Assembly: GCA_030141605.1 (NCBI GenBank)
Contig: JAQGDQ010000033.1
Location: forward strand, 675,214 to 739,213
Length of the DNA stretch: 64,000 nucleotides
Direction: 5' to 3'
Source: Tubiluchus corallicola
Lineage: Eukaryota > Priapulida > Priapulimorpha > Priapulimorphida > Tubiluchidae
Of the stretch, positions 21,328 to 60,000 are shown in pieces; the stretch's first letter is position 1; each line of letters opens with the position of its first letter. The notes under the pieces were generated by a model. That model ran no database searches, had not been told where the DNA came from, and worked only from the letters and a program-made list of their open reading frames with translations. The position numbers and the translations under genes are program-made.

Positions 21328-24300
21328 CTATGAGTCATCATTATATGGAGGTATATCTACTAAAATGAATTCTTCTTCAGCTTTAAAAGAAGGGTACAGA
21401 CCACGGTCTCCGGTTCTCCTGTTTGTTCCCTTTGAGTAACCATCCCAATGATTACCTGCAATTCCCACAATATCACCCACTTCAAGGTCAATTTCATTTG
21501 GACGTTGCTTTTGATGAGGATAAATGGCACGTTGGTTATGCGCATGTTGACCACCAAAATAATAGATATCATCCAGTGATCTGAACCATGTAGATGCATC
21601 TGGATGTATGGCATTCATCATTTCATACGCAACACGGCACACCTAGAATATAGTAACTTAATAATCATAGTTTTGCAAGATTACAATGTTTAACGATTAC
21701 AGGTTATAGTTAGTCACATTTGCAACTATGTAATATAAACTGAAAATAAATATGAGAATATATATTCCCTACATATTATTTTATAATGAAAAGCAACAGA
21801 GTGTGCATATCATAAAGGCTATAATCAAATTGCACATTACGTCACAGAAGTTCCCTCCTCCCACTCCCTTAATCATACAAGTATCCGACTATTCCATCTT
21901 TAGTACATATTACGAACATGAACAGCACACATTTTCTCAGTGACTACATATTCCGTAACCTCTTTGTGCACTCTGCGTGATTTTAGGAAGCTTAGTGCGT
22001 AACATAAGCTTGGACTAATTAGACTCGTTGTTACAAGTGAAAACAGTTTCCTCAGATTGTGCCCAGGTATGCAACTTAATAATGCAAGAAGTCACAAAAT
22101 CATAGTAAACTTAACGGAAATTTTTAACAATTGCTTTATTACAATGTTTTATGAATCTGCACAACTATAATTTAAAAACAATAGGGCTTCTAAAACTCGG
22201 AGTATTCTGTTAATGGGCATGACTTCAAAACTGTTATCACTCGTTCCTGAATATAAAACGAAGATGTGAGACCAAACATTGAATACTTTGTGTGAAAATT
22301 CCACTAGTTTTTTTTTGTGGAACAGCGACAAAGAGAGAATGTTCACTGCACCATGACATAAAAAATAGCTCACTTGCCACAAGAAGTAAAACTTACGGAC
22401 CTGAGAAGAAAATGTACAAACGAGATAATCTGTCTGAGACAAAAAGTAAATATCGATTATAATGCCCCGCAAAGCAGCATCCGAGTATCGCTGACTCAAT
22501 CCTGCAGTTTGGGCTATGGTTTCATCACCCAAAAAACGATATTTGGGATACCTGCAACAACATTTGCACAGCAAAATTAATTATAGAACCCGATAAAAGT
22601 AATATACTCTTTAGAAAACTAAATCTTGGCTGCAAAATGCACATTTGCACTTTTACGATTACACTGACAAAATCAAAGACAGCGTAAAAAGGCTGTCATA
22701 AAGTTAAAATACACACCTTTTGGAGAAAACAAAAAACTTGTATTGTGTAATGATGCTACCTGACTTTTCAACTAAGGGTAACTTGTAGACACCAGTAGAC
22801 AATAACTTCAATTATTAGGTATTATTTCTTCAAGTATACAATTAGTTCAAACCATGCTTTTTATCAAATGCACTCCCATGTTGTTTAATGGTCAAAAAAG
22901 CAGGCCTATTTAGTATGTATTATCAGCAACTAGTTAACAAAAAAGCATACCTTTTTGTTGCCTCAATAATTACGCGAGGTTCATCAGTCGCAAGATAGAC
23001 CTGCCTGACCTTCACAGGATGGTTAATTTCTAGTCTCTGGTACCATTCTTCTACGTGATACATGTATTCGTCAATGGAATGCAATGCTGCTTCTGTGCCA
23101 ACTTTATCTGTTCTTCTCACATGCACACTAAAAAACAAAAAATTCCAATTGTTGCAAAGCTATTACTTAATAAAAAATATAATAAATACAATCAAACAAA
23201 ATCTGACTGGAAGAAAAGAAATTCTAGCTTACATTTTTGATTTTTAATTTAGACACAATGTGAAAAACTCCATAATTATGGTAGATATTTCCCTTTATTT
23301 TCTGCTTCACAAAATATACAGTAAAATGTGTTTCATACCCCACTATAGGAGAAAAAAATCCGATTCTTTCTCTAGTGCGCTCGATATCTTCTGCAAGCTC
23401 TGGCTGAAGACGATTAAGATATTTTACAAACTGGCCAACCCACCACACAGAAGGGTTACCATGGAAGCGTAGCAAACGTTCTGAAAGATCCTTGGGAATT
23501 GAGAGTGGCAAAGCCTCTGGCCTTGGCCGAACACTGTCTACAATAGGCAGGCTTATTACTTGTGCGTCTTTGATCCTCTCCGGTGCTGACAAATATAAAA
23601 GAGTTCAATTATTTTAGAATGCAGTTAACACTGATTAGCACACTGCATGGAATTCTGAATGGTCAAACGAATGTTTACTTAAGTAACCAAACATGTACTC
23701 TATATTGTTTAGCAAAAGGAGTGTTAGCAGCTTTTAATTTACAGAGAAATATAATTCAGAAGTTAATCACATAGGTCACACATAAGATTAGATAAAGACA
23801 AAAATCAAGCCAATATTTTAGCGCATTATATGCAATGATCAGCTATGTCTAAGTAATTAGTGTATCACAGAACTAGTTGTACTGATATATAAATCAACAA
23901 AATTTGCAAACAGAAATCTAAAATCATTGAATTGTAAATACGTTCAATAGTACTGCTTCACTCATTTTGTTAAAGGCAACTAATAGTAGATATTGTTTTT
24001 AGCAAACTGTATCCAATAATTAATATAGTAAACAATAATACTGTTAAATGTTCCATGAAGCTTGGTTGGTGCTCATAAAAAGTTATGTACATCAAAATGT
24101 GTTTTTAAAATTAATGGTTATACAACATGAATGAATGGGTTAAGCATTTCTAGTAAGATAGCACAAGGAGGTTGAGTAAACTTGTCCAATAAACACTTTG
24201 GCAGACCACTTCTCTAATCATTACTATTATAAAGGAAAAAATGAAAGTAGTAATAAATAATGAATTTTCATAGTAAGAAAACAAACAAACTGCAGGCTTT

Positions 24301-40848: not shown

Positions 40849-43177
40849 AGGACATTATGACTGTAACTCCTCCTGGTTTAAGACATGTCATTTGACTTGC
40901 CTGTCCTCCAAATGACCTGTGCAAACATTTCTGGTACCATTTGGCATGAGTTTAGACAGTTTTGTAGCATTTGAAGTAATACGGTTTATTCATGCAAACT
41001 TACGAATACTCTGGTTTCATAATGTAGGTTGATGTCTAGATTTTTCATGCCTAACTTAAGTTCATTTAATACTAGATATTGTTTTTCTTTTCTGGGGTTT
41101 TTACCTGAAAACCACTCAACATGAAACTTTCTTCTTTACGGTGAATTACAGTTGCCAGGTCTGCTTGCAATAATAACAGTAACAATATCAATTAAGTCTA
41201 AAGATAATAATACAAGCATGCACAAGCAGCCATGATATTCCAATAAATATTACCTTTAGTTCAATTTGCCTTACACATCATGCCATAAGATAAGAACGTC
41301 TTGATATAAAAAAAGAATTTACTTTGAAAAATAAATGGAACACTGTGCCGTGCAAATACCATGTCACACAACACCAACCTGCCAGCAAATTGAGGACATT
41401 ATGTACTTTCCCTGGCGCAGACCACTCAACATTATTATGAAACGGTCAAATTGATATCGCATGTGCTGCCACCTTTTGAACGCCGCTCGAAATATTTCAA
41501 ATCTATAGGCACAATATGGCGGAGTAAACATTGCTTTATCAAGGCTTTTGTGTTGAAGAGTGTTTTGCATTTTTTCCCGTGGATTATATTGAGATTTTGT
41601 GTGTAAAAAGTAGGTCCAAGAGTTACTCTATTATTTAATTGGCGTAAAAGTTTCCGTAGCTGTATCAAATTTAAATCTTGACTGTCAAAAATATCTAGGA
41701 CTACATGTTATATTGTCATCAATACATTAGCCGGATTAAGCTGAATACATCGCATGTTTTTTTATTGTGAAGCTTCGCCGTCATTATTTCAAAAAATGTT
41801 CTTACAACTCTAAAAATCATAAGCTTGAATTCTGTTAACTGGTTACAATAATATCAATCAATCAAATTTTATCAATCGATGGTTGCATTTTTTTAAGAAT
41901 ACGTTTTATATATTAATCACTGTACAAAAGAGTCGCCGCTAAAGTAGCCTTACGTCAACAGCTACAACTGATTTTGCAAGACCCTAGATATAAAACAAAA
42001 ATGATACGAGATAAATTTGAAAAACTTGTGTGGTTTGTAGTGTTTACACAGGTAACAAAAATCAGACTTGGATACCCTTTTCCTTATACTCATCGAGTAC
42101 CTAATTATTTGTATACACAAATAAAAACAACTGCTGGTGAATTTTAACTAACGGCATTCTCATGTTACCAAGTATTTAGTTATTACATCCTGAGGGCCCA
42201 AACACGTGAGCTGTCAGTCATGAAAGTTATATTTTTCACACAAGGCGTTTGACTGAGTTTTTATCTGCCAGACTTCTTACTTACTTTATCACATGCTTTG
42301 TCAGTCAGCTGCGTCAGTCTAGGTAATGCACTGAGCACTATTAGGAGAATAAATACGTATATATATATACGTATATATATATATACATATACAAAATATA
42401 TATATATATATGTTGTGTTCCTAAAAAAGGCGAAGCAGCATGATCTATAAACTAATGTGGTATTTTACATCAAAGAAGAACTTCGTTTTTTTCAATCCTA
42501 CAAATGCTTACAGGAACGATTGATTATAAGCCTCTGAGTTTAATGTAAATATTCTTAAACAGTGTGAGACTCCAGTAGCCCTTTCTAGCATAAAAGCTTC
42601 TTATTCATCTCCCATGATAAAAGTATTATCATGCTTGTGTTCCTAAAATTATATTATAGCAAGTTTCAATATTGAAATGTTCCTTTAAAATGTAATTTAG
42701 CACATGTTTTCAACATGGTATCATAAACTGCAGGAGCCTATATAGAACCTGGGGTGGCAGGTAAAAAAAACAAAGGCTTGCTAACCCAAATATGACTACA
42801 AAGTCATCACATTAAATTACAGCATCAAACTGCAAGATAGTTTCCATTCACTACAAGCAGCCTCTAAATTATTTAGCTTTTTCCTATAGTTGAGTGTACT
42901 TTCTTTGCATGCATTGCTTCTTCGGAAACCAGGTATACATAAAAAACTGCAACAAGAAAGTTGAACAGCCAGCCTAAAAGTTGGAACCGCTGCTAAGTGA
43001 AACTAAGCTAGTTATGCAGCAGATGTGATAACCAATTTGCATGAAAAGTATACTTGTTTGTTATAAGTTCTTATAACCTTTTTAGTGTTTTTTTCTGTGA
43101 AGAAAACCGCCATGTTTAAAGCAATAAAATTGTTTTTTTTATTTTCAGGTGCTCTTGTACAGCTATATTATGTGGTA
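40849..43177. other. Intergenic; APLF upstream region
   Basis: Holds a degenerate CCAAATGACC/ACATTT-type repeat near 40880-40980 and an AT-rich tract at 42357-42412. The first APLF coding exon starts right after an acceptor, so a non-coding first exon and promoter should be here; the relatively GC-rich stretch near 41410-41530 is one candidate. No gene was supported. Confidence 0.35.
42357..42412. repeat. TA/TATACGTA low-complexity tract
   Basis: Alternating AT with TACGTA interruptions, nearly self-complementary. Confidence 0.85.
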
Positions 43178-43561
43178 CAGTGTTCCCTTGCTACTTCGCG
43201 GTTCGTTTATCGCGGACTCGCTGTTTTGCGGGTTTTCAAAAATATTAATGTAAAATATTTATCTCAGTATTTTTGCTGTTTCGGGGGTTTAGCGGTACTC
43301 CGTCAAAATTACGTATCTAGGTTTAAGAGTTTAAAACATTTTTATGAACATTTAAATAAAGTTTTTTAAAAGGTACACGTACAGTGTGGGAAAAGTTATT
43401 AAGGGAATGGGAAAGGGTTATGTATAAGAGTGTGGGGAGGGTTTATAAGGACTTAAAATAATGTATAACTGCTAAAATAATATAGTGTCCCTACTTCGCG
43501 GAAATTCACGTATCACCGGTGGACCTGGAATGGAACACCCGCGATAAGTGAGGGAACACTG
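43178..43561. mobile_element. pogo/Tigger-type MITE, 384 bp
   Basis: Ends CAGTGTTCCCTTGCTACTTC and the reverse complement of TTATCGC-rich right end (GATAAGTGAGGGAACACTG) form terminal inverted repeats, flanked by TA on both sides (43176-43177 and 43562-43563). The CAGTGTTCCC...TCGCGG ends are those of pogo-superfamily elements. No transposase. Confidence 0.88.
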
Positions 43562-43987
43562 TACACTAAATATCAATAGTCATACAGACTTATAGTTTAG
43601 CTATGTATTGCTGTAATTTTGTTTGAAAACATGATTCGAAAGTATTAGTTAAGATACTTTAATATCTGTAGGGATATTTGTAATTAATACAGTTTATGGA
43701 CAAGTTTATGGAAATGAAGAGTAAAATAATATTGCACAACTCACATTCTGCAGGCTTAAAACTGGCTTTCAAGACTGACATTTAAGCCTAGTGGTAGTGG
43801 TCCTGTTGCATTTATTAATCATAATTTAAAAGGTCTTATTTGTACTGTTGTGCTCTCATCTGTTACATATTTAGTTTAATAATATTAGTGAATTATCATC
43901 CTGTCACATAGTAGTAATTTGCTTTATTGTATATTATTTCAAAATAATACAACATTAACCTTATATTCTGCTACATTACAGGTCATC

Positions 43988-46900
43988 ATGTCAGCGTTAT
44001 ATGAACTTGTTTGCGTTGACCCATCTAGTGACTGCATCATAACTGTGCCCCAAGGAAAAACGACAATAGGTAGAGGCCCGCTAATGAATGTAAGTTACTT
44101 TTTCTACAGAAATACATTTTCTACAAATAGAAGCACCAGGGTATCAAATACTAATTTCTAAAAAGTATCTGAAAATTGAATATTCTGTATAAAAGTCTAA
44201 TTGAATCTTTGCCTCAAGATTGGAATAAATTCTGTGTATCAGTTGCTAAAAGTTTCTTTCATGTTTGCGCTCTATAATAAAAACATTTCATTTTAAGCTT
44301 TTTTTAAAACAAATGTTTATCTATTATTGCTAAAAATACATAATATTACAGCCACAGTCGAGCTGTCATTTTCACTAAACCTACACTGCTGTTTACAGAT
44401 AATGAATGAACATGGCTGTTATTGTGAGATCTCATTTTGTAAGCAGTTGGATCACTTTATCGGTGCCTGGTCATTTCAGGCCTGGCCACTTATGTTTCAT
44501 GATAAAATGAGTGACTTTTATAATAATATTGTGTGCCCAATGTGTTTGGAAATTTTTTACTTTACAGTAATATTATTGAATACAATCTTTCAGTGTCAAG
44601 ACAAACGAGTGTCTCGTGGTCATGCAATTTTAGAAGCTGGTGATAGTGGAGAGCTGACTATTACCCCTGTAAGTATGAACTACATTTTAGTATTAGAATT
44701 ACCTATATAAGAAATGTATGAAACTGTGCATATAAGGCATACAACTGTACATTAAGAAACATGCCGAACTAGCATATTTTGCTTATTAGGTACACGTGAA
44801 TCCCTGCTTTTATAAGAATGCTTCATCGGGAGATTCCACAAAGCTGCAGCCGTTAGAAAAAGACAAACCACAAAAGCTTTACCCGGGTGACAAGTTTTCT
44901 CTTCTTCCTAATACATACATCTATGAAGTCATGAAAAAAGACCTGAAAAGGTAACACAATGCACAATATTTCATTTTGCTTGTTTTTTCTTTATTTTGTT
45001 TTTAAATTTCTACTGTAAGACTATATTTAGAGTAGATGTTATGCAATACCAGTAATTATGGTAATCACGAGTGTCTTGCAATAGAATAGTTTGCCACTGC
45101 TGTTGATTACTTGACATAGATGTTTTACACAATTTCACAAGCTATCTAGCAAACATTGCAGTTCATTTTTGAGGAAAAAGACAATAAAATTGAGCAATCA
45201 AATTGGGACCGAACTTGAGAGTGAAAGACCACACTTTTAATAACTGCAAAAAATGCTAGTATGCTTTAAAATTTATTTCATGTCAAAAAATGATAATTTT
45301 GTATATAGTTTGCATCTGTATCTAGATTTCTGTTTTTATTTTTTAATATTTACTCAAAAATCTTGACTGTTTTAGTAATGGAGTAGCTGAAACGGAGAAG
45401 ACAAGTAAGAAATCACAGAATAATATTGAAGCAGAGAAACCACACAATGACAGTGACCGACCAGAGTCACCTGCAAGCATACACACTGAAATATATGATT
45501 CCAAAAAATCCACTGACCAAGGTAACGTATAGGTGCTATAAGCGAAACAAAAATTTCGTTTCTCTTTGCCAATAATTGCAGTTTCGGTTGAGTTTATTTT
45601 CTTCAAAAATTATTAAATTTCATAGCCAAAACTTTCAATTATTTTCCGTAGCATTTTTCTAGGCTTTAGTAATATTTATCCAGCTTACTTTTTTCTTCTA
45701 GATGTCAAAAATCGTGGAAAAATTTTAGCCATTATACTTCAAATAAAGCGTAACTATCGTTTATTTAATTTTTCGTGCTATGTATACCATGCTTTTTATG
45801 TCAATGCGGCATATCTTCAGTGCTAGTGACTGTGAAGTTTTAGGGTTTCCAGGCACAATCAACCGGAATATCAAAGCATAGTTTGAATAAAACCAAGTTT
45901 AATTTTATAATTTATGAAATATAGGCAACAAAATAATAATAAAATAAAATTTGTCATTTTTGTTTTGCTCGAAATTTCATGGTCTTTCATAATAAACATT
46001 GTTCTACTTTTTTGGTTAGGATTTGTTGCTTAGCTACTTCATCAAGCTTGTATCAGAGCAAATATAAGCAAACAAACAAAAACAAAGTATTTTGTTGATT
46101 TCAGAAATTTTTTTCAGTTTTGATGGTAGTTGGTTTTGCAGAAATGATTTTGGTTTGGTATCTTTTCGGTATCAGTTTCCTATGTAAGTCTACGCGTGGC
46201 AATTTCATGCTTTTTTTGCATTCAGACAGTTGAATCTGCACAAATTTGGTCTTGTGTAGATTGGTTTGAGCACACTTGTTTTGTAATTAAATGTATACAT
46301 ATAAACTCAGTTTGAAGTAAAGTTGTAAAGAGTTAATGTAAAACCATGCTGTGCATGAAAGCTTGCAGTTTTTTGAAATTTATAATGCAAAGATACTAAA
46401 AAATAAAAATATCAAGTAATTAAACCTTAACAAAGCATTCCTGCTATATTAGAAACCCTTTGTATAACTTTAGAAAATCAAGAAGAAAAGGTCACTGATG
46501 AAGAGAAAAAGTTGATTCAAGAAAAAAAGAGCCCCGTGTGCCACAAAGAGGATAAAGAATTTGGTAAGATGTCAACTTAAAGACTGCAGCATCATTATTT
46601 TGCTTTGATTTGTATAGAAATGCTTCATTTCTGCAAAAGGTGTTCCTATGTCACAAGTACTAGAAAATGTATTACTCAGTATGACTGGCTTTTCTAGTAT
46701 GAATAAGACAGCTCTATTAGAAAATTGTAAGAAATGAAAATGGCAGTCTGAAAGTTTTGTTAAAGTACTTTAATTATTATAAAAAGGGGAAATTATGAAT
46801 ATTAGAGTATCATTGCTCATATTAATCTGATGTATTAAATTCAGTAATAGTAGTTACTTTTTCAGTTATAGTTGAAAGAACAGTTCATTCTTAGACTTTA

Positions 46901-49900
46901 TTATTTAGTAGAAAAGTTATCAAATTACAAACAAATTATAAAGTTGTGAATTTTTAGTAAAACTGACAAAGCTGTCACAATAATTCTTATTCCTTGCTTT
47001 GTCCTGACAGTGCATTAAGCACAGTAACTGGTGAACTCATGCAAGTCATCATTGTGTAAATCGTAAACTTGCCAAAGTCTGCCGTAATCATTTTCACATC
47101 TCTTGTAAATAAGTAATGTACTAATCTTTCTGCATTTCGTGTGTTATTAGTTGTGTTCTGCTTGTCAGACAAAATTATTTTTATTTCCAATTCGCAGATT
47201 ATTTTAAATAAGCGAATTTTAACAGGTTTCTCGAATCATAATTCATAAAAGGAATATTTTTAAACAAATTTTGTAAATTGTACAACTCTTTGAGACTTCA
47301 AACTAAAGCTGGTGTTACAGTGCCTAAAGTTTTCTTACTAAAGCATTATGCATGCAGTTACAAAATCAAAAAATAATATAGAAGTGGTAAATATCAGGGA
47401 ATATGTTTCTTGATTTTAACAATATGACACGAGGGAGTTCCGTGAAGTAAAATTTCTTTTTTGCAGAAAATGAGACACATGAAAATAGTAAAAATGATGA
47501 AGAATGCGCCGATGCTGATGTGAAAGGATCTGAATTAGTAAATAAAGCTGAGACAGAAAAATCAGAACTACCTAAAGATTCAGAAAATAGCCTCAAAGAT
47601 GATGACACACAAATTAAAAAACGTGGCCGTGGCAGACCTCCTAAAACAGCTTCCACACAGAAAGTCGCCAGAGAAGAGTCAGAAGAAGAAGCAGAAGAGG
47701 AGGAAGAGGAAGAAGAAGAGCCTGAAGTCATGCCACAGAAAAAAATTAGAGGTAAACCAGTAGACAAAGAAGAAGATGCAAAACATGATTCTGAAGATGA
47801 AGCGAAGATAGCACCTCAGAAGAAAGGGACAAAAGCTTCAAAAAAAGACGAAAGCAAACTAGCAGGAAGAACAAAGTTAGATTCTGAAGAGGAAGAATCA
47901 AGTGAGGAACAAGATGAAGAAAGAGAAGAAGTATCGCCAAAAAGGAAAGGCAGAGGAAGGCCTGCGAAAGGCAAGCCAAAAAATGTACCTGAGGATGCAA
48001 AGAAAACAAAAAAAGATTCTGATCGGGAATCAGGTGACGAAGAAGCAGCAGCAAAAGAGGAGGAACAGGTGAAGTATGAAGAGGAAGAGGAAGAGGAAGA
48101 GGTTATGCCAAAGAAGAAAATACGGGGTCAACCTGTCAAAGAAAAAAGTGAGTCAGAAAGTGAAGATGAGGTTGTGGCATCATCTGGACGAAAGCGTGGA
48201 AGACCAAGTAAAGCTGAAAAAGGAACTCTTAAAAAAAAGAAAGGTATTGTTAAGCCAGAAAAAAAATCTAAAAAAGATGATTCTTCTGAAGGGGAAGAAG
48301 TTTCACCGAAAAGAGTTAGAGGTCGACCAAAAGGTGCACTATCTAAAGGTAGACTGAAGGAATCGGAATCGGAAGACGACTACAAGGAAAATGATCAGGA
48401 TGATGATGATGTTGAAGATGAGGAAGACATGCCAAAAAGAAAAGGACGAGGCAGGCCACCAAAGCGTCAGCGAGACAGTGAAGATGAGTCTGATGAAGAT
48501 GATTATGCTCCAAAGAGCAAACGTGGCCGTCAAAGAACAGTGGTAAAATCGAAAAAATCCAGTAAGGGACGACGACGCATTCGACGGTCTTCATCAGATG
48601 AGGAAGAGGATGAAGCAAACATCGCACCAAGACGAAGGCGTTCAGGAAGGACAAAGGCTAAAAAAGATGAAAGTGATGAAGACGACGACGAGGCGTATGT
48701 GAGGAAACGTGCAGCTGAGCGGAAAGCACGGCAACCCCGGGCTGCTGCTCTAAACTACAATTACAATGGTTAGTACTTAAATGAATAGACCGAGTTCAGA
48801 ATTTTGTCTGCATTTTAAAAGTACCAAAACAAAATTGCACCTTTTGCCATTTTCGGTGACTAGGCTGACCAGCTTGTGAAAGTGATTTTCTCTGACATCC
48901 TTGGGATAGCCAGTCGGTGTAGATGAGTTATTCCGACAGCACAGGGCAGCAGGCTAGCAACTTGTAAAATTTTAATAATTATTTTATTACAGTCAAACCT
49001 CTTTGTACTACACACTTTAGCACCAGACAAAACTTGGTGCTGTCATTATAACGAGTTGTGTTAAATTTTGCCGTAGACGAATCACAAAACAGTTAGACAA
49101 GATGTTGGAGCCCTCAGTTTTCACTCTAAAGGTTAAAGAATTAAATGAAAATTATTAAATCAACTGTTTGTGAATTAGTGATTCACTCAAAATAAATGTT
49201 TATTAAGAAATTTTTCTTATTTATAAAGCAGGCAAATATCATCACGCATCTTGCTGGAGAAAAATGCCACATGTTTTCTTGTTAGTTTCCCATTATGCCT
49301 ACGTGGATTGACAGTAATGTTACTACGATGTATGATATACAGCTTACAAACAATCAAAACACTGCAGCTTGCATTATGTTATTCAACATGTGATGTCTGG
49401 CCGGGGTTACCAATTTAGCCTAGCATTTAGCAACCTCGTACAGTTGGCATTGTGTCAACAGCCTGCTGGCTCTAGTTCAGACTGCTGGCACTATTTCCTC
49501 ATTGAACATATATTTTAATATGCAATGGTTTAACTTGTTAGCTTTATATACATTTAATTACTGCAATTTCGTTTCTGACCATTTTGCAGATGGTAAGCAA
49601 GTTATCAGTACGACGGGGTGATACATCATTGTTTGACTGTACAGTCTAAAAGTGGTGCAGAAAAAATGAACGTTTGTTAGAGTTTTCTGTATTGCTGTAG
49701 CATTGTCCTTAGCAATAAAAAAAGAATTACTTTCAAAAATATGAGATCTGCTGCAAAAAGCTGACTTTTCCTGACAATTTCTGGACACATTTGGCTCGTG
49801 TCTTCAAGCCCAATTCCCTTATGCATCCAGGAAAATCCAGAAGGGTGGTTACCCTCTCAGTGACAATAGTGTTACACACCTTCATTGAAGTCTGTCCAAA

Positions 49901-52900
49901 GTTTAGAAAAATTTAATGAAAACTAACATAGTTTCACATACTAAAAGCAAGAATAGGCCCAAGAGTTGATTAGAAGTGAATGTATGTTGTTTTTTGTTTG
50001 CAAAGTTAGTACATTCATGTTGACATTGGAATACAGATGGAGTGCCAGTAAACCAGTTCAAAAAAGAAAAAAAAATAGTACAATAAGTGCTTCTAGTGAC
50101 ATCTTATTCTGTTGTAGTGCAATTGTTTTACTAGGACTGCCTGACGTTATAAACTTTTATTATATTAGGATGTATATCACAGTGACTATTCAAAAAACTA
50201 ATGGTAATGCTATAAAGAAATTCATTACTGATATATTTTTGCATTGTTATGATACTTCCCATTGCAATTTTACTTTGGTACCTTGCTGGCTGTGTGATGG
50301 TGATCTATTGTGAGAACTTGCAAGTGTAGAAACAAGCAACTTGCTGAGAGTAATTTCTTTCTAATCTGAATGTTGCTGCAAGATCTGTTGCAAGATTGCA
50401 GATAGACGGCTTGCGCGTAACTGTCAGAGAATAACTCGAAGCAAATTTTGCTCTCTAGTCTGAGCATGCCTTGACAAGTTACTTACAAGCTTCTGGTGAG
50501 AAAATTCATTAGCTTCTTGCTAGCCTGAATTTGCCGTTAGTAGTCAGTCTAGTCTTTGGCGTGCATCAGAACTATATAAGATGCTTTAAGATTACATATA
50601 TACTGAACTGCACTGGAATTACTTTTCTAACAAAATTGCATACTTTTTCAGTGAATGAATATATTGATGAATTTATTCCAAGCGATGAGGATCAATTGGA
50701 AGATACTTATATGGCCAGAGCATCTGCTTCTGACGATGAATACAGGGCTGAAGAAGATTCCGCCAGTGACTGGGAAAAAGATGACAAAAAAGCAAGTACT
50801 TTAATTTCATAACTCCATAAAATAGTAGCCTAAATTGGGGCCCATTGAACACAGTAATGACATCACTATTGTCATGGTTTATTGGATAGGCGAAAGTAAT
50901 CGAGCTGCCATAGTTGATTGCTAGCTACTAGCTAAGCAACATAATACCTGGTTAATGAATGGAAGGGTGGCTATCCAAAAACACCTTCTGCTTCGTTTCA
51001 CCTGCTGTAGTATCAGTGGTTTTTTTCTTTTGCTGGACAATATTAAGGCACCTTTGCCATAACAGGTCGGAGAATGGTCTTTGATAATTAACTAGATTCC
51101 AGTTGAGCCACAACAATCCACCTTTAGTGGGCTTTCCTATTAATGTTGAATCCTGGTTTTCACTGTGCCAGGCAGTATAAAAGCCTGAGATACTAAAACT
51201 ATTTATACAAAGTACAAAAAGTTTAAAATTCTTGTTCTTTATCCATCATTAAAGCAGCACTTGCAGACGTTTTTAATGTTAAACTTAAATCATAGCTTTG
51301 TCCGCACCTCCTTCAATGCACTATATGCAACATGTGAAAATGTATTAGTAACGAGATATTTATTCACTGGTGTCTCCCGCTTTGCTGATTTATTATTGTA
51401 GCGTGTTAAGTTTTCTGTTTTCTCATCATTGCTGCTCACTGGCAGGTTGTCTTGTACAGCTCAAATAATGCTTCTGACAAAAAGTGATCATATTTGCATT
51501 TTCCAAGGGACAAAATTGTAAGAACACGGTGGATTCTACAAGAAAAGAATTGGACGCCAGGCAAAAAGTCTTGAGCTGTTCTAGATGAGTAGTATGGCTT
51601 TTTGTGAGTTACAATAATAACACTAAAACAATTATTGTCATTGCAAAAGTGCTCGAAAATTGCTCACCTAATGTAGACTAAATACAGTTTTCATGAAAAA
51701 TAGCCTAATTATTACCTTTAATTACTGTCAACGTATTAACTCAAAAAGATGTGGCTAGCAGCTTACTTGCAGATCACAGATTTGATTCGCGGGAGTTTAC
51801 CACAGGCTGCACATTCTTGTCCATACAGCCTAATGGAGGATACCATACAGGTCTCTCATAATTTCCATACAGCTACAGTTTAATAAGTAAATTGATTACC
51901 TATGTCATATATTCCCGATTAGAGAATGCCATTTATGATATGTGGTTCCAACTCTACCAATTTGACCAGGAGACTTTAATGGTAACCTTCCTTTCTCCCG
52001 ATTTTTTGCCAACTATTATTTCAAGGTAAAATTGCACAAAATGTGATCACAGTGAAATACGACACTCTTTTTGCCCAAAATAGAATCATCCATTTATAGT
52101 GCCAGATAATGCAAAAAAATCATCTGGTAACGCAGCATCTAGAATATGTAAATTATTTGTGTTTTACTGCATACCCGCATATTCATTGCTAAATACACTA
52201 GAGATGCCAGTGATGTCACGTTATAACTAATACATTTATGCTTGCCTGTATAAAGCTTTAGATCATTTTAATTATAATATAGTTATCAGTAATATTTAAA
52301 CTACATTTTGAAATCCCAATCATATTTCGTGCTTTCAGTGCTGTTAAATTTTTAATATTTTTTATAAGCGTGACAGTGCAACAAATGATTAATTACAGTA
52401 CTCACACTTTTTCTATGACCTATGGCTAAACTGAAATTGGACTGAGAGTTGCCTAGGTAGTGTGAAAACTGAGCTGCTAATCTGAATTCAGAGCTAGGTG
52501 AGACTTGCCAATGCAGATTGGATATTATTGGTTATACTGAGTCTAAAATACTTGTTTTGTTTTACTGTTTGTCTTATGATATTACTTTAGCATTTTTTAA
52601 ATTTTTTGACTCAGGTAAATTATCATTTTGTGTTATCCATATTTGGCAAATAAACGTAACTACATCAAAATAGTGTTTTTATTGCCGACCGGTTTTGAAC
52701 AAATTGTTCGTTATCAAGACATCTAAAATAAAGAAATTTACCAGAATTTAGAAACTCCATCGAAATACAATTCAGTAGTTTGATAGACAGAAGATATGTG
52801 ACATAACATTATATAGATAATTTAACAATTTACTTTACAGACTACATGTCTTGAATGGTATGAAATCATGTTTTTTATACCATTGAAGATGTGTAGTCTG

Positions 52901-54555
52901 TAAGGTAAATTGCGTATGATATTTTGTGATACCATTTTGCATACTGATATATTCTCAGCTCAGTGAATGTGCGAGATAACATTATGGTGGCCATTAACAC
53001 AGTTTCTGCTTCGCAAAAAATCAAATGTAAAAGGCATAACTAGTTCATAATATGATCCTAGGTGTGATAATGTCACAATCATTTACCGAACTTCCCTTTT
53101 GTTCAAGTGTCTATGTTAAATTAAAGAAGGCTTCGAAATTAAATACTTCAAGTATTTTATTAATGGTCCACATTCAGGACTAACCAATTAATATAATCTG
53201 TTTTTAGGCAAAGAAAACAGGAAAAGGTGGTGGTCGTAAAGGTAAAACGAAAGGCAGCGACTCAGAATCTGACGAAGGTTACATTCCCCGTCCTACTGCA
53301 AGACGGGGTGGTGAGGCAAGAAAAAAAGCAGCTTCCAAAAAGAAAGTTTCTCGTGAACCCTGTGATGATGGTAAAAGCTGTAAAAAGTGAGCAATAGTTT
53401 ATACTCAAATTGACAGTTGTATCCACAGTTCCTTTGTTTTTAGACTACCTCATCTAATTGTCTACAACCCTTTCTTTGTCATTGTGGGGTCTTTGAAAAA
53501 TTGTGTGCCTACAGTATCAAGAGTCTTTCCAACCTGCCATGTGTCAAAACTGCTTACGTCACGTGTGAATAGTCTTCAATCAAATGTGCTGTGTCTTAAA
53601 CCTCCTTGTGTCCGAAGGTCTTGGCATCAGACATGTCACATATCCAAACTTTCTTGTGTTGAGAATACCCAACACGATAATGCTGAACTCCAGAAGTTTC
53701 TATAGACACTTTTTTGGATCCAGCATTTGGTCATGTTGTCACTTTTATATTTCAAAGCTATCACGTGCCACACTGGTAGTTTTTGTCACAGGATAAATTT
53801 TTGCATGAAGACACTATGGACAGACTATAACAGAACCCAATTTTTCACTTTCCCAATGTGGCATTGAAAATGCCTGTTAAATGCATCACGCCCAGATCTT
53901 CCTGTTAAATTGTGCTTATTTAAGCATTACAAGACAAAAAACAAAGCATACTGTAAACTGCATAACTACTACAAGTATATAAAAAGTGTATTTCTGATAA
54001 CTTTAAATGGTATTGTAAATAACATAATTACTGAGATAGGTGGGCAGTTGTAACCTACATTTTACAAATACCTGCATGCTTGTTGCTTATTTGCTCCCAG
54101 CCACAGCCATTAAAAAGTTGCACTTATGTGACACAGCTGTGTCACTGAATTTCTCTTGCAAATAAATTTCATTCTAAATTTTCTTTTTGCTAAATGTATT
54201 CAGGTGCTCAAAGTGACATTAACTTGTTTAATCTTATTTTTGTGAATTGGTGGCTCTGTATGTCTTGCAGTGTTTGCCATTGCAGAGGTATTTGCATGAT
54301 AACACTGCTTTGCAAAAATCCTTACTGATCTAATAGAAACTAATGTAACTGTGGGCAACATATGGATTCAATGAATGTTTTGTTTTGATGGCAAAATAAG
54401 ACTGCATGACCCAATAATAATTTTACGATGTATTTTTCTATTTTAGGCGAGGAAAGCATCACTTGAAGGAGTATTCTCATCCTGGTGACTCTGATTTTGA
54501 AGATGAGGATGCAAGTGAGAGCGAGCCAGATGCTGAAGTTGAAGAGCAGGTGTGA
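43988..54555 (+). CDS. APLF: Aprataxin/PNKP-like factor (FHA-PBZ DNA-repair histone chaperone)
   Basis: Nine coding exons: 43988-44089, 44594-44668, 44790-44950, 45376-45521, 46474-46563, 47467-48768, 50652-50791, 53208-53386, 54447-54555; 767 residues (human 511). N-terminal FHA domain (about 1-112) with IGRGPL, DKRVSRGHAILE and NPCFY, the phospho-peptide pocket used in the family to bind XRCC4/XRCC1. Exon 6 (residues 192-625) alternates acidic runs with basic AT-hook-like motifs. Exon 7 is acidic (EEDSASDWEKDD, like the human histone-binding tail). One PBZ finger (C723, C729, H736/H737, H743, then HPGDSDF) and an acidic end follow. No Ku-binding motif was seen. Intron 7 begins with GC. Confidence 0.9.
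47590..48720 (+). other. Protein-level repeat array: acidic + AT-hook-like modules
   Basis: About ten units of 30-45 residues, each an acidic run, then usually a hydrophobic residue-x-Pro step, then a basic core. Cores in order: RGRGRPPK, KKIRGKP, QKKGTK, RKGRGRPAK, KKIRGQP, RKRGRPSK, RVRGRPKG, RKGRGRPPK, SKRGRQR, RRRSGRTK. Five contain the GRP of true AT-hooks, which bind the AT minor groove; the others are altered. Confidence 0.85.
50890..51060 (+). mobile_element. Possible 5S-rRNA-derived SINE, copy 2
   Basis: In APLF intron 7. GCTAAGCAAC (50931) followed by CCTGGTTAATGAATGGAAGG (50947) parallels the 5S internal promoter (GCTAAGCAAC ... CCTGGTTAGTACTTGGATGG), with GCCATAG upstream in place of the 5S GGCCATAC. 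It shares TTAATGAATGG and GCTATCC with the copy at 7.7 kb. Confidence 0.5.
51252..52340 (+). repeat. Dispersed repeat A, copy 2 (APLF intron 7)
   Basis: Partner of 10554-11930. Landmarks: TTCAATGCACTATATGCAA (51313), TGCTTCTGACAAAAAGTGAT (51469), TTTGATTCGCGGGAGT (51781), TACAGCTACAGTTTAATAAG (51869) and GAGATGCCAGTGATGTCA (52202). About 250 bp shorter, missing part of the middle. Confidence 0.75.
52640..52740. repeat. Possible mobile-element end (GACCGGTTTTGAAC motif)
   Basis: The phrase GCCGACCGGTTTTGAACAAA followed by TTGTTCGTTATCAAGACATC reminds me of a recurrent element end seen in many invertebrate genomes, but it cannot be assigned here. Confidence 0.3.
52827..52911. repeat. Short inverted repeat (35-bp arms)
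   Basis: Left arm 52827-52861 and right arm 52877-52911 are reverse complements with about five mismatches, separated by 15 nt. The core is TACAGACTACATGTCTTGAA against its partner. Either a tiny MITE or a hairpin in the APLF intron. Confidence 0.75.
53484..53700. repeat. Degenerate GTGTCNAAA-type minisatellite
   Basis: In APLF intron 8. Phrases such as CATGTGTCAAAACTGC, CTGTGTCTTAAACCTCC, CTTGTGTCCGAAGGTC and CATATCCAAACTTTCTTGTG recur at about 20-bp intervals, similar in wording to the right arm of the 29.5-31.1-kb fold-back element. Confidence 0.5.
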
Positions 54556-54908
54556 ACTAGAACAGCGCTGCGAGTTGCGTCTCATTAAATACAAGAATGT
54601 CATGTATACCCATCGACCCTTTGTAGATATTCTTTCCACATTTGTGTAAAATACACGAGTATTATTATCTAGGCATTCGCATGTTGGTTATGTTCTATGT
54701 ATGTGTGAATTATGTGCAAGTAATCGTTTTTATTGTAAATGCGTTTGTGTAGCTAAATTTATTTGTTTTAGTTCAAGTTAAGTCTCACATTTTATTTTTT
54801 ACAAGATTTTGCAAATTCTGTGTCAGTTTTGGCTGTACACAGCTTACATGCAGTTCTAGGATTTATCTCGTTTAGACTTTTTTGACACTTACCTACATGA
54901 AGACTTGT

Positions 54909-57080: not shown

Positions 57081-60000
57081 CTATATAAAATTTACGTCTT
57101 CCATTTCCACAGGCTCTCTATTGAAAACAGCAGCTAACATATGCTTCGGAATTTCTGAACCACGCACTTTTAAATTATAGCACGCAGTCTCAACTTTCTG
57201 CAGGCTCTGTTTTAATGTAAACATTTTTCTGCCAATCTCCTTTGAAGAACACGTACCGACTGCAAGAAATCCGTTAGATATTTGTCGCAAAAATGCACAT
57301 AATTCAAATGGAAGTTCTATATCACCAGTTCCAAGGCTGGTTATAGCCAATCGCATTAATTCACCAGTCATATCAGCAATTCCCAGCATGTATTCAGCTT
57401 GCGGTAGAGGTAGTTTCATGAACTCGGTGATATGTGAGTCTCCTTGTGCTTCAACCTACATAAACATAATTTTAGCTGTGGACAACATTTTTTGATTTTT
57501 TTTAGAAAAATTACTGCATCGTGAAAATACATGGTTAATGAATAATTTCCCTATTGCTCCATGTTAACATTTACTAAGAAACATTTACAGAATTATTTAC
57601 AGATGCAGTTTTACAGACTGTGTCATTAATTTATACTTCAATACAAGATTAGAAATGGCAATTTTGCAAAACCAAATGAAATGTTATTTAAACCATTGCA
57701 AAAGGTAATGTTTCAATCTGCTTATCATAAAGATTTAGATGCATCATAGTCGTGCTAACAATATCAATCTACCTGACAAACTACCATTTCTGTACACATT
57801 GTTCATAAATGAAATATATTAATGTTTAGATATAATTGTGAATATGATTACAAACGAATTTACCTACCAAGCTTTCCAAAGGTTCTTGCTTTGCAAACTG
57901 TAATCTCTCTTGAACAGCAGTGAAGCTAATGAGAGAGGCAGTTTTCAAATAGTGACAAAGTGACAAAGCCTCTATATACTCTTGCAAGCCTGCAAGTGCC
58001 AGACTGTTATTAAAATATACATGCAAAGCATACCACACTATCGCTAAATAAGAGGATATTGTAAATCTCTTTACTGATCTAAATGCATGTAATATAATTA
58101 ACAGCATTAGCTGCACTATGATTGCTAAAATTTTAAGCTTTATGAACTCTATTCACAATATGTAGTGTTGTTTACGCTGGATGCGTAGTTTACAAATACA
58201 CCAAATGAGATACCAACTTTCATTAACCAGATAACATGTGGGAATACTTATATTGAAAATGCCATTCAAGTGGCATTCAAGTATTGTTGATGTGTATGTC
58301 AAAATGATGTCGTTGTGAATCGCAGACTTTCAACGCAAAATACAATGCTGTCATTTGATAATAACGATATGGTGCATGGGTAACAGATTCAAAGCAAAAC
58401 CGCTACGCTAGTGTATTAGCGCATGATGAACGTAGCTCCTTACAAACAAAACGGTAATTAACATGATTGTTTCTGCATACATAGTGCATAAAAAGGAAGT
58501 AAAGATGACATAAAAACAGGAAAGGCTCTTTAGAAACATACAAAAGTCTTATTTTAAGTACGTGAAGGAAAAATATTGAGTCAATCATGCGGAGTTATTT
58601 GCATCAATTACCAATAGTTTTTATGTATATTTGAATAGAAGCGGCCCGTTCCATTTGTTTTTGAGTCAATTAAGCGACTGAGTCTATTAACGTTGAGTCT
58701 ATTAAGCAGTGCCTACTGTAATTTGGCTAAGCCAACGTGCACTTTCACTTAGAACGATAATATAAGCAGCCTGCAAGCTCTACAAAACAATAATCATTAA
58801 ACATACCAGGTGAAATGGCGTGCAAATATAAATAAAAGTCTTCGTTTTCCAGCTGCTGAGCAATTTTCTTTATGTGGTTACGTTCAATTTCGGTAAGCTT
58901 CTCCTCTGCTTCTTGCAGAATGCTTTGTGAATCCAAACAACTACATAAAACAAAAAAGCAAAACAATATTTAATGTACGTAAAAACTAAAAACAATGTGC
59001 GACAACACTCAATGGACTTCCTTCTCAGTTATATTATAATTTACTTACAGACAGGGCCGGTAATAAGCCCATTTGACCGAATTCTTCAAATTGGGCTCCG
59101 CGCTAAGAGGGGTCCTGCGCACACGCTGAACCCAAGGGTGCTATAATGAATTAATGAGTGTCCAGCATGCACAAAGTTTCTTGGTAATGTGAGTGTACTG
59201 AAACTATTCAGTTTGACATTGTATATCTATGTTTCAATGTTTTTTACTGATCATTTGTTTATTTGTTTTGTAATTTCAGTTTATCATCCCCATTAATGGC
59301 AAGCCCTAATGCATTAGTTGTGCCAAGCACAGGGTTTCAGACTGCATCCAAGGTAACAAGGTTTGGCATGCCACGGCGTTTCCTAATGTTTTTATTGTGT
59401 TGAGGATTTACTTGACAAGACCCGTAATAATCGCAATCAGATGAAAGAAGTTTTTCAAAACTGAAACTGAATAAAACATACCTACTGTCAACAATTTCAC
59501 AAGGCAGACTAAATAATTTGGCACTGCTATCTGTAAAAAATGACTTTGCATAAACCATTGTCTTCAAAATAATTTTTGAGAGATTTCTCGAATAAAAAGC
59601 CAGAACAGTCTGTTTTTAGAAGGGACATGTTAACAGTTTTCTAATTGGGCCCCTCACTTCCTAACACCAACCCTAATTACAGATATTATTTAGCCTATAA
59701 AAAACATTGTATTCTACACAAAAACATAGTTTCAAAATTCAATTTATTAAATTTACAAGAGAAAATCATGTAAAAGAAAAATGATTTTTACAATTTTTAA
59801 TTCTAAAGAATTTTATGATTTTTATGCTAAAAAATGATTTTTCCTGTTCATGTCACCTGAGAAAAATGTGGAAAGTGGTATAACAAAGCAAAAACCTTAA
59901 TAAACTTGAAAAAAAAACAATTTCGTTCTTACCCAGCAACTCTGTGGAGTAGGAATATCACTCTTTTACTTTCAATTGTGACATCACGACTGTACCTGAT

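Follow-up and report, generated by a model that had tools for sequence, protein, structure and literature searches.

An APLF gene with a central array of acidic and AT-hook-like modules in Tubiluchus corallicola

A first-pass annotation of 64,000 nucleotides of Tubiluchus corallicola DNA (the window, meaning the whole stretch analysed) had assigned one gene to the repair protein APLF and described about ten repeats in a single large exon, each pairing an acidic run with a basic, AT-hook-like core. In mammals, recruitment of APLF to DNA breaks is understood to depend on Ku, XRCC4 and poly(ADP-ribose), and the human protein is not known to have an RGRP array. The locus raises the question of whether this is a genuine APLF and, if so, by what route such a protein would reach chromatin. 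We lean, with modest confidence, towards the reading that the central region is a multivalent acidic plus AT-hook-like array, through which chromatin contact would have shifted to minor-groove binding of the HMGA/D1 kind.

The gene model was extended to nine predicted exons spanning 43988–54555 on the plus strand, which share one frame from the start codon at 43988 to the stop at 54555 and encode 767 residues in the order FHA domain, array, short acidic segment and one C-terminal PBZ zinc finger. By alignment, the FHA domain was assigned to exon 1 (43988–44089, residues 1–34, with the start codon and the beginning of the domain at IGRGPL), exon 2 (44594–44668, residues 35–59, containing DKRVSRGHAILE) and exon 3 (44790–44950, residues 60–112, containing VNPCFY). 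These are followed by a linker in exon 4 (45376–45521, residues 113–161), an acidic/basic linker in exon 5 (46474–46563, residues 162–191, phase 1-1), the modules in exon 6 (47467–48768, residues 192–625, phase 1-1) and an acidic segment, NEYIDEF...DDEY...SDWE, in exon 7 (50652–50791, residues 626–672). Exon 8 (53208–53386, residues 673–731 plus two bases of codon 732) encodes the first half of the PBZ finger, and exon 9 (54447–54555) encodes the second half, a short acidic tail and the stop codon. Frame and phases agree across all eight exon junctions, and splice signals are standard at every one apart from a single GC donor; seven of the eight introns have GT donors, and intron 7 is a GC–AG intron with its donor at 50792–50793 (AAAAAA/gcaagt). 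This donor was picked because it keeps the frame, whereas a nearby GT, judged by eye, breaks it and, taken as the donor of exon 7, runs into an early stop in exon 8. From the exon coordinates, the longest introns measure 2.4 kb, and G+C content is 42% in exon 6 compared with 34% in the window.

Around the gene, a Translin-family gene lies tail to tail with APLF at 57084–58152 on the minus strand, where two ORFs match Pfam Translin (7e-27 and 7.4e-08) and further exons, delimited by eye, run to about 60150; also judged by eye, it is probably TSNAX. Exons of FUT8 (alpha-1,6-fucosyltransferase), including its SH3 domain, occupy 21331–23604 on the minus strand. Just upstream of the APLF start, the stretch at 43165–43560, reading ...cttcgcggttcgtttatcgcggactcg..., is perhaps a dispersed repeat by eye.

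With residues 1–112 as the query, residues 18–107 matched two human APLF FHA sequences (2.8e-21 and 5.6e-21), and these were the only PDB matches at E 0.001. The Pfam profiles FHA_2 and FHA scored 25.6 and 22.9 bits on the FHA fragment, both above their cut-offs (23.1 and 20.7), and 21.6 and 18.0 bits on the whole protein, both below them. According to the accessible part of PMC4655838, the phosphothreonine and peptide contacts of the APLF FHA domain are Arg27, Pro29, Lys36, Ser39, Arg40 and Asn60; aligned to human APLF, all six are conserved here, as Arg29, Pro31, Lys38, Ser41, Arg42 and Asn63. Together with the C-terminal PBZ finger, the FHA match at 2.8e-21 strongly supports the original assignment, and on this evidence the gene is a genuine animal APLF. 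Six short FHA peptide patterns gave no match in viral contigs, a result of little weight. Judged by a single exon-by-exon search of the 343.5-Mb genome, a second canonical APLF was rejected: the other two PBZ matches lie beside TDP1 exons and in HPF1.

The PBZ finger itself (residues 721–746) is formed jointly by exons 8 and 9 and keeps the four Cys/His zinc ligands at APLF spacing. Its zf-CCHH score was 25.3 bits on the fragment (above the cut-off of 22.7) and 20.3 bits on the whole protein (below it), and both of its significant PDB matches are human APLF, at 1.2e-4 over the full chain and 0.0046 over the best individual stretch. In the human finger, poly(ADP-ribose) is contacted by Tyr381, Tyr386 and Arg387, as given in a figure legend of PMC6264785. 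All three are absent here, replaced in the alignment to the human APLF PBZ by Asp726, Lys731 and Lys732, respectively. Lys for Arg387 is a conservative change, and the general PBZ consensus tolerates Lys at this position; the two aromatic losses are the stronger point in favour of an altered finger. The PBZ fingers that the search found elsewhere in this genome read CKYGEKCYRKN (beside TDP1) and CKYGAKCYQKN (in HPF1); both tyrosines are kept in each, and the arginine only in the TDP1-adjacent one. The genome search reads exon by exon, and the intron-split APLF finger was not among its matches, so that another intron-split PBZ would likewise escape it. The change in the finger need not accompany the array, since non-canonical PBZ residues also occur in two bdelloid APLF ohnologs, as far as the accessible text of PMC6264785 describes them.

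The two loci found by that search are described here in their own right. On contig C1525 (393000–402900), a canonical PBZ at 402180–402257 on the minus strand (56.7 bits) sits upstream of, and on the same strand as, exons matching Pfam Tyr-DNA_phospho (45.3 bits, and another at 16.3 bits, below cut-off), and the unjoined exons suggest a TDP1 with an N-terminal poly(ADP-ribose)-binding finger. On contig C1730 (433587–436655), a single open frame of 362 residues encodes HPF1 with an N-terminal PBZ (Pfam HPF1 1.8e-92; PBZ 37.9 bits).

Absence of a Ku-binding motif, as the first-pass annotation had claimed, was borne out in the modelled exons, including the exon 4 linker, and in all three plus-strand frames of 43900–54600, in which our own pattern for the motif gave no match. 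Trp occurs only once in the protein, at position 666. For the histone-binding acidic domain, exon 7 was compared with the human sequence, which binds the histone octamer through the anchors Tyr462, Phe468, Tyr476 and Trp485 (PMC9328677, accessible part). In exon 7, NEY, F, DDEY and SDWE follow one another as these anchors do in the human domain, and a pattern framed after the fact was met by 2 of 20000 shuffles. Seven 3-mers are shared with the human domain against 2.2 expected (45 of 20000 shuffles reach seven), as is one 4-mer, which 4387 of 20000 shuffles also reach. Of 5000 shuffles, 602 attained the alignment score, a window of exon 6 scored just as high, and exon 7 had no PDB match at E 10. 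On this mixed evidence the exon 7 segment is a possible counterpart of the APLF histone-binding domain, with weak homology. If the two are homologous, their positions differ, as the segment precedes the PBZ finger here, whereas the human domain follows it.

Delimitation of exon 6 by eye gave 11 modules, against the roughly ten proposed at first, spaced 24 to 57 residues apart. Each runs from an acidic stretch, usually through a hydrophobic-x-Pro step, into a basic core; five cores contain RGRP and six are degenerate. The RGRP cores are those of module 1 (TQIKKRGRGRPPK, 47607–47645), module 4 (VSPKRKGRGRPAK, 47931–47969, also with SPKR), module 6 (ASSGRKRGRPSKA, 48177–48215), module 7 (VSPKRVRGRPKGA, 48300–48338, also with SPKR) and module 8 (DMPKRKGRGRPPK, 48426–48464), all on the plus strand, as are the remainder. 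Degenerate cores were assigned to module 2 (VMPQKKIRGKPVD, 47727–47765), module 3 (IAPQKKGTKASKK, 47808–47846), module 5 (VMPKKKIRGQPVK, 48102–48140, the twin of module 2), module 9 (YAPKSKRGRQRTV, 48504–48542, near-canonical), module 10 (IAPRRRRSGRTKA, 48621–48659) and module 11 (AYVRKRAAERKAR, 48693–48731, acidic then basic without a hook core). Exon 8 may hold a twelfth module, at 53280–53318 on the plus strand, which likewise lacks a hook core.

Chance matches of a charged stretch were excluded by shuffling the exon 6 product both as a whole and locally, inside 10-residue blocks that preserve its charge layout. The five RGRP occurrences compare with a mean of 0.008 in whole shuffles and 0.11 in block shuffles, and none of 3000 shuffles of either kind reached five. 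The junction motif [VIMYD][MAS]P[KRQ][KRS], defined after the sequence had been seen, occurs eight times, against 0.067 (whole) and 0.09 (block), again with none of 3000 in each case. SPKR occurs twice, which 25 of 3000 shuffles equal. Five of the cores had been claimed as canonical AT-hooks: five RGRP cores with basic flanks are present, but of ten 24-residue fragments (modules 1 to 10) the Pfam AT_hook profile accepted only module 1 (20.5 bits), placed module 6 just below its cut-off (16.5 against 17.4) and had no match to the other eight, three of which hold RGRP. Nor was AT_hook listed for the whole 767-residue protein at E 1. The claim of five AT-hooks therefore depends more on the RGRP core and its basic flanks than on the profile.

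Growth of the array by internal duplication, another proposal of the first-pass annotation, was supported by comparison of three module pairs, picked by eye among many possible, and appears to be old. Modules 2 and 5 are identical at 10 of 13 residues, among them the non-canonical IRGxPV, and modules 4 and 8 also at 10 of 13; in both pairs, six of the ten shared residues are encoded by different codons. Aligned without gaps, modules 4 and 7 agree at 5 of 13 residues, four of them in different codons. Shared residues in different codons point to old duplication with the protein sequence retained, so that the array likely grew by old duplications, not recent slippage, and the codon differences suggest its maintenance at the protein level.

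This age also bears on an explanation that we regard as a real possibility, although not the probable one, namely that such an array is nothing unusual in the APLFs of this animal group, where it would be a charged linker of variable length in which hook-like motifs are common and function is unchanged. Repeats that are old by the codon divergence of the three pairs are probably shared by relatives, and the non-mammalian APLFs covered by the accessible part of PMC9864664 likewise have one C-terminal PBZ and lack a tail of the mammalian type, which makes the overall plan here not odd in itself. On the other side, no description of an APLF, or of any protein with PBZ and FHA, bearing an AT-hook array was found in the searched and accessible open-licence literature, a silence that is weak evidence. 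The term "AT-hook" is absent from the accessible text of the bdelloid paper describing APLF domains (PMC6264785), and the word APLF is absent from the main text of an AT-hook review (PMC11354804). An APLF with an AT-hook array would be new among the APLFs described in the literature searched, and the array may be ordinary in its clade.

A second competing account, which we consider doubtful, is that the array serves chiefly as a histone chaperone and charge buffer in which acidic runs ending in a hydrophobic-x-Pro step bind histones and the basic cores merely neutralise these runs. Residues 236–620 are 29% acidic and 28% basic, and the eight acidic-to-basic junctions, against 0.07 expected, would fit such a buffer, as would the use of acidic sequence with aromatic anchors by human APLF in histone binding (PMC9328677, accessible part). 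However, an aromatic residue occurs in only one of the eight junctions (YAP, module 9), with Tyr in two modules outside the motif (AYV in module 11 and YIP in exon 8), and five exact RGRP cores exceed what neutralisation requires. Alignment of the human acidic domain to exon 6 did not rise above shuffles either (128 of 1000 reach its score), which also leaves the earlier suggestion of an extended histone-binding surface without support.

The coordinates first given for the 1302-nt exon 6, 47467–48768, proved exact; the exon is open and continues the reading frame of exon 5 into exon 7. It encodes 434 residues within a stop-to-stop frame of 440 amino acids and is bounded by the acceptor ttttttgcag/AAAATG at 47467 and the donor ACAATG/gttagt after 48768. 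By the measures applied (open frame, splice signals, phase and joined frame), exon 6 is real at the level of sequence. As a phase 1-1 exon it could be skipped with the frame intact, and a short APLF without the array could be the main form, with exon 6 an optional cassette; its splice sites are ordinary in sequence, and we judge this quite unlikely. That two genes were wrongly merged, with exons 1–3 belonging to one and exons 6–9 to a D1/HMGA-like second, is barely credible, for although exon 6 resembles multi-AT-hook proteins and introns reach 2.4 kb, eight junctions agree in frame and phase and the last two exons form a PBZ of APLF type.

Under the favoured reading, an APLF whose central array contacts DNA, the N-terminal FHA domain would dock on CK2-phosphorylated XRCC1 and XRCC4, as its six conserved contact residues suggest, and the basic cores would enter AT-rich minor grooves and so anchor the protein to chromatin. 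The interleaved acidic runs might, more speculatively, tune or mask DNA binding and contact histones. The C-terminal finger, with its ligands kept, would probably read poly(ADP-ribose) at best weakly, and Ku- and poly(ADP-ribose)-dependent recruitment would in part be replaced by multivalent DNA contact. Direct DNA tethering by the array is plausible; as residues 236–620 are nearly neutral, with a net charge of −5, such binding may be weak if the acidic runs are not occupied by other partners, for example histones. In HMGA, SPKR-type sites act as a CDK-type switch, and a similar phosphorylation switch in the array is speculation by analogy. The exon 6 product also contains 25 [ST]xx[DE] sites as a raw count. 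The array as a target of serine ADP-ribosylation was rejected, with eight KS/RS sites against 10.3 expected and 1722 of 2000 shuffles reaching eight. A fuller version, in which the AT-hook tether has replaced recruitment by Ku and poly(ADP-ribose) and holds a scaffold and chaperone on AT-rich chromatin before damage, switched by phosphorylation of SPKR and acidic-serine sites, strikes us as unlikely. Were the favoured reading true, the same APLF scaffold would reach chromatin by another way and offer a natural test of which APLF recruitment route matters.

Compared with known systems, the protein resembles human APLF (C2orf13) in its N-terminal FHA domain with the same phosphothreonine contacts, its PBZ finger and its acidic sequence. 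In human APLF, however, a histone-binding acidic tail comes after a pair of PBZ fingers and a Ku-binding motif is present, whereas here there is one terminal PBZ with altered poly(ADP-ribose) residues, an array and no Ku motif found. Among the species studied in PMC9864664, the accessible part of which was used, tandem PBZ fingers with an acidic tail occur only in mammalian APLFs and the others have a single PBZ at the C-terminal end, as here; an AT-hook array is mentioned for none of them. That statement is not general, because bdelloid rotifer APLFs differ: in the accessible text of PMC6264785 they have tandem PBZ fingers, unlike the single finger here, and the C-terminal histone region is present in two of four ohnologs and missing in the other two. 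Their Ku-binding region is variably conserved and reduced in some, which, with the non-canonical PBZ residues of two ohnologs, recalls the gene described here; as bdelloid APLFs keep Ku-binding regions to varying degrees, the missing Ku motif may be a loss. Outside the family, several AT-hooks combined with acidic sequence are found in HMGA1 (three hooks) and Drosophila D1 (10 hooks), but their acidic domains are C-terminal, whereas here acidic runs alternate with hooks, and the protein is a repair factor that also carries FHA and PBZ domains (PMC5957525, accessible part, for HMGA1 and D1). Also comparable is the C-terminal tail of the end-joining factor XLF, a disordered DNA-binding region that has been compared to an AT-hook, although it belongs to an unrelated protein and, in the accessible part of PMC5468090, provides one DNA-binding site per monomer without an array. 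If the array binds DNA as proposed, APLF would join the end-joining factors that carry DNA-binding motifs in disordered regions, as proposed for the XLF tail.
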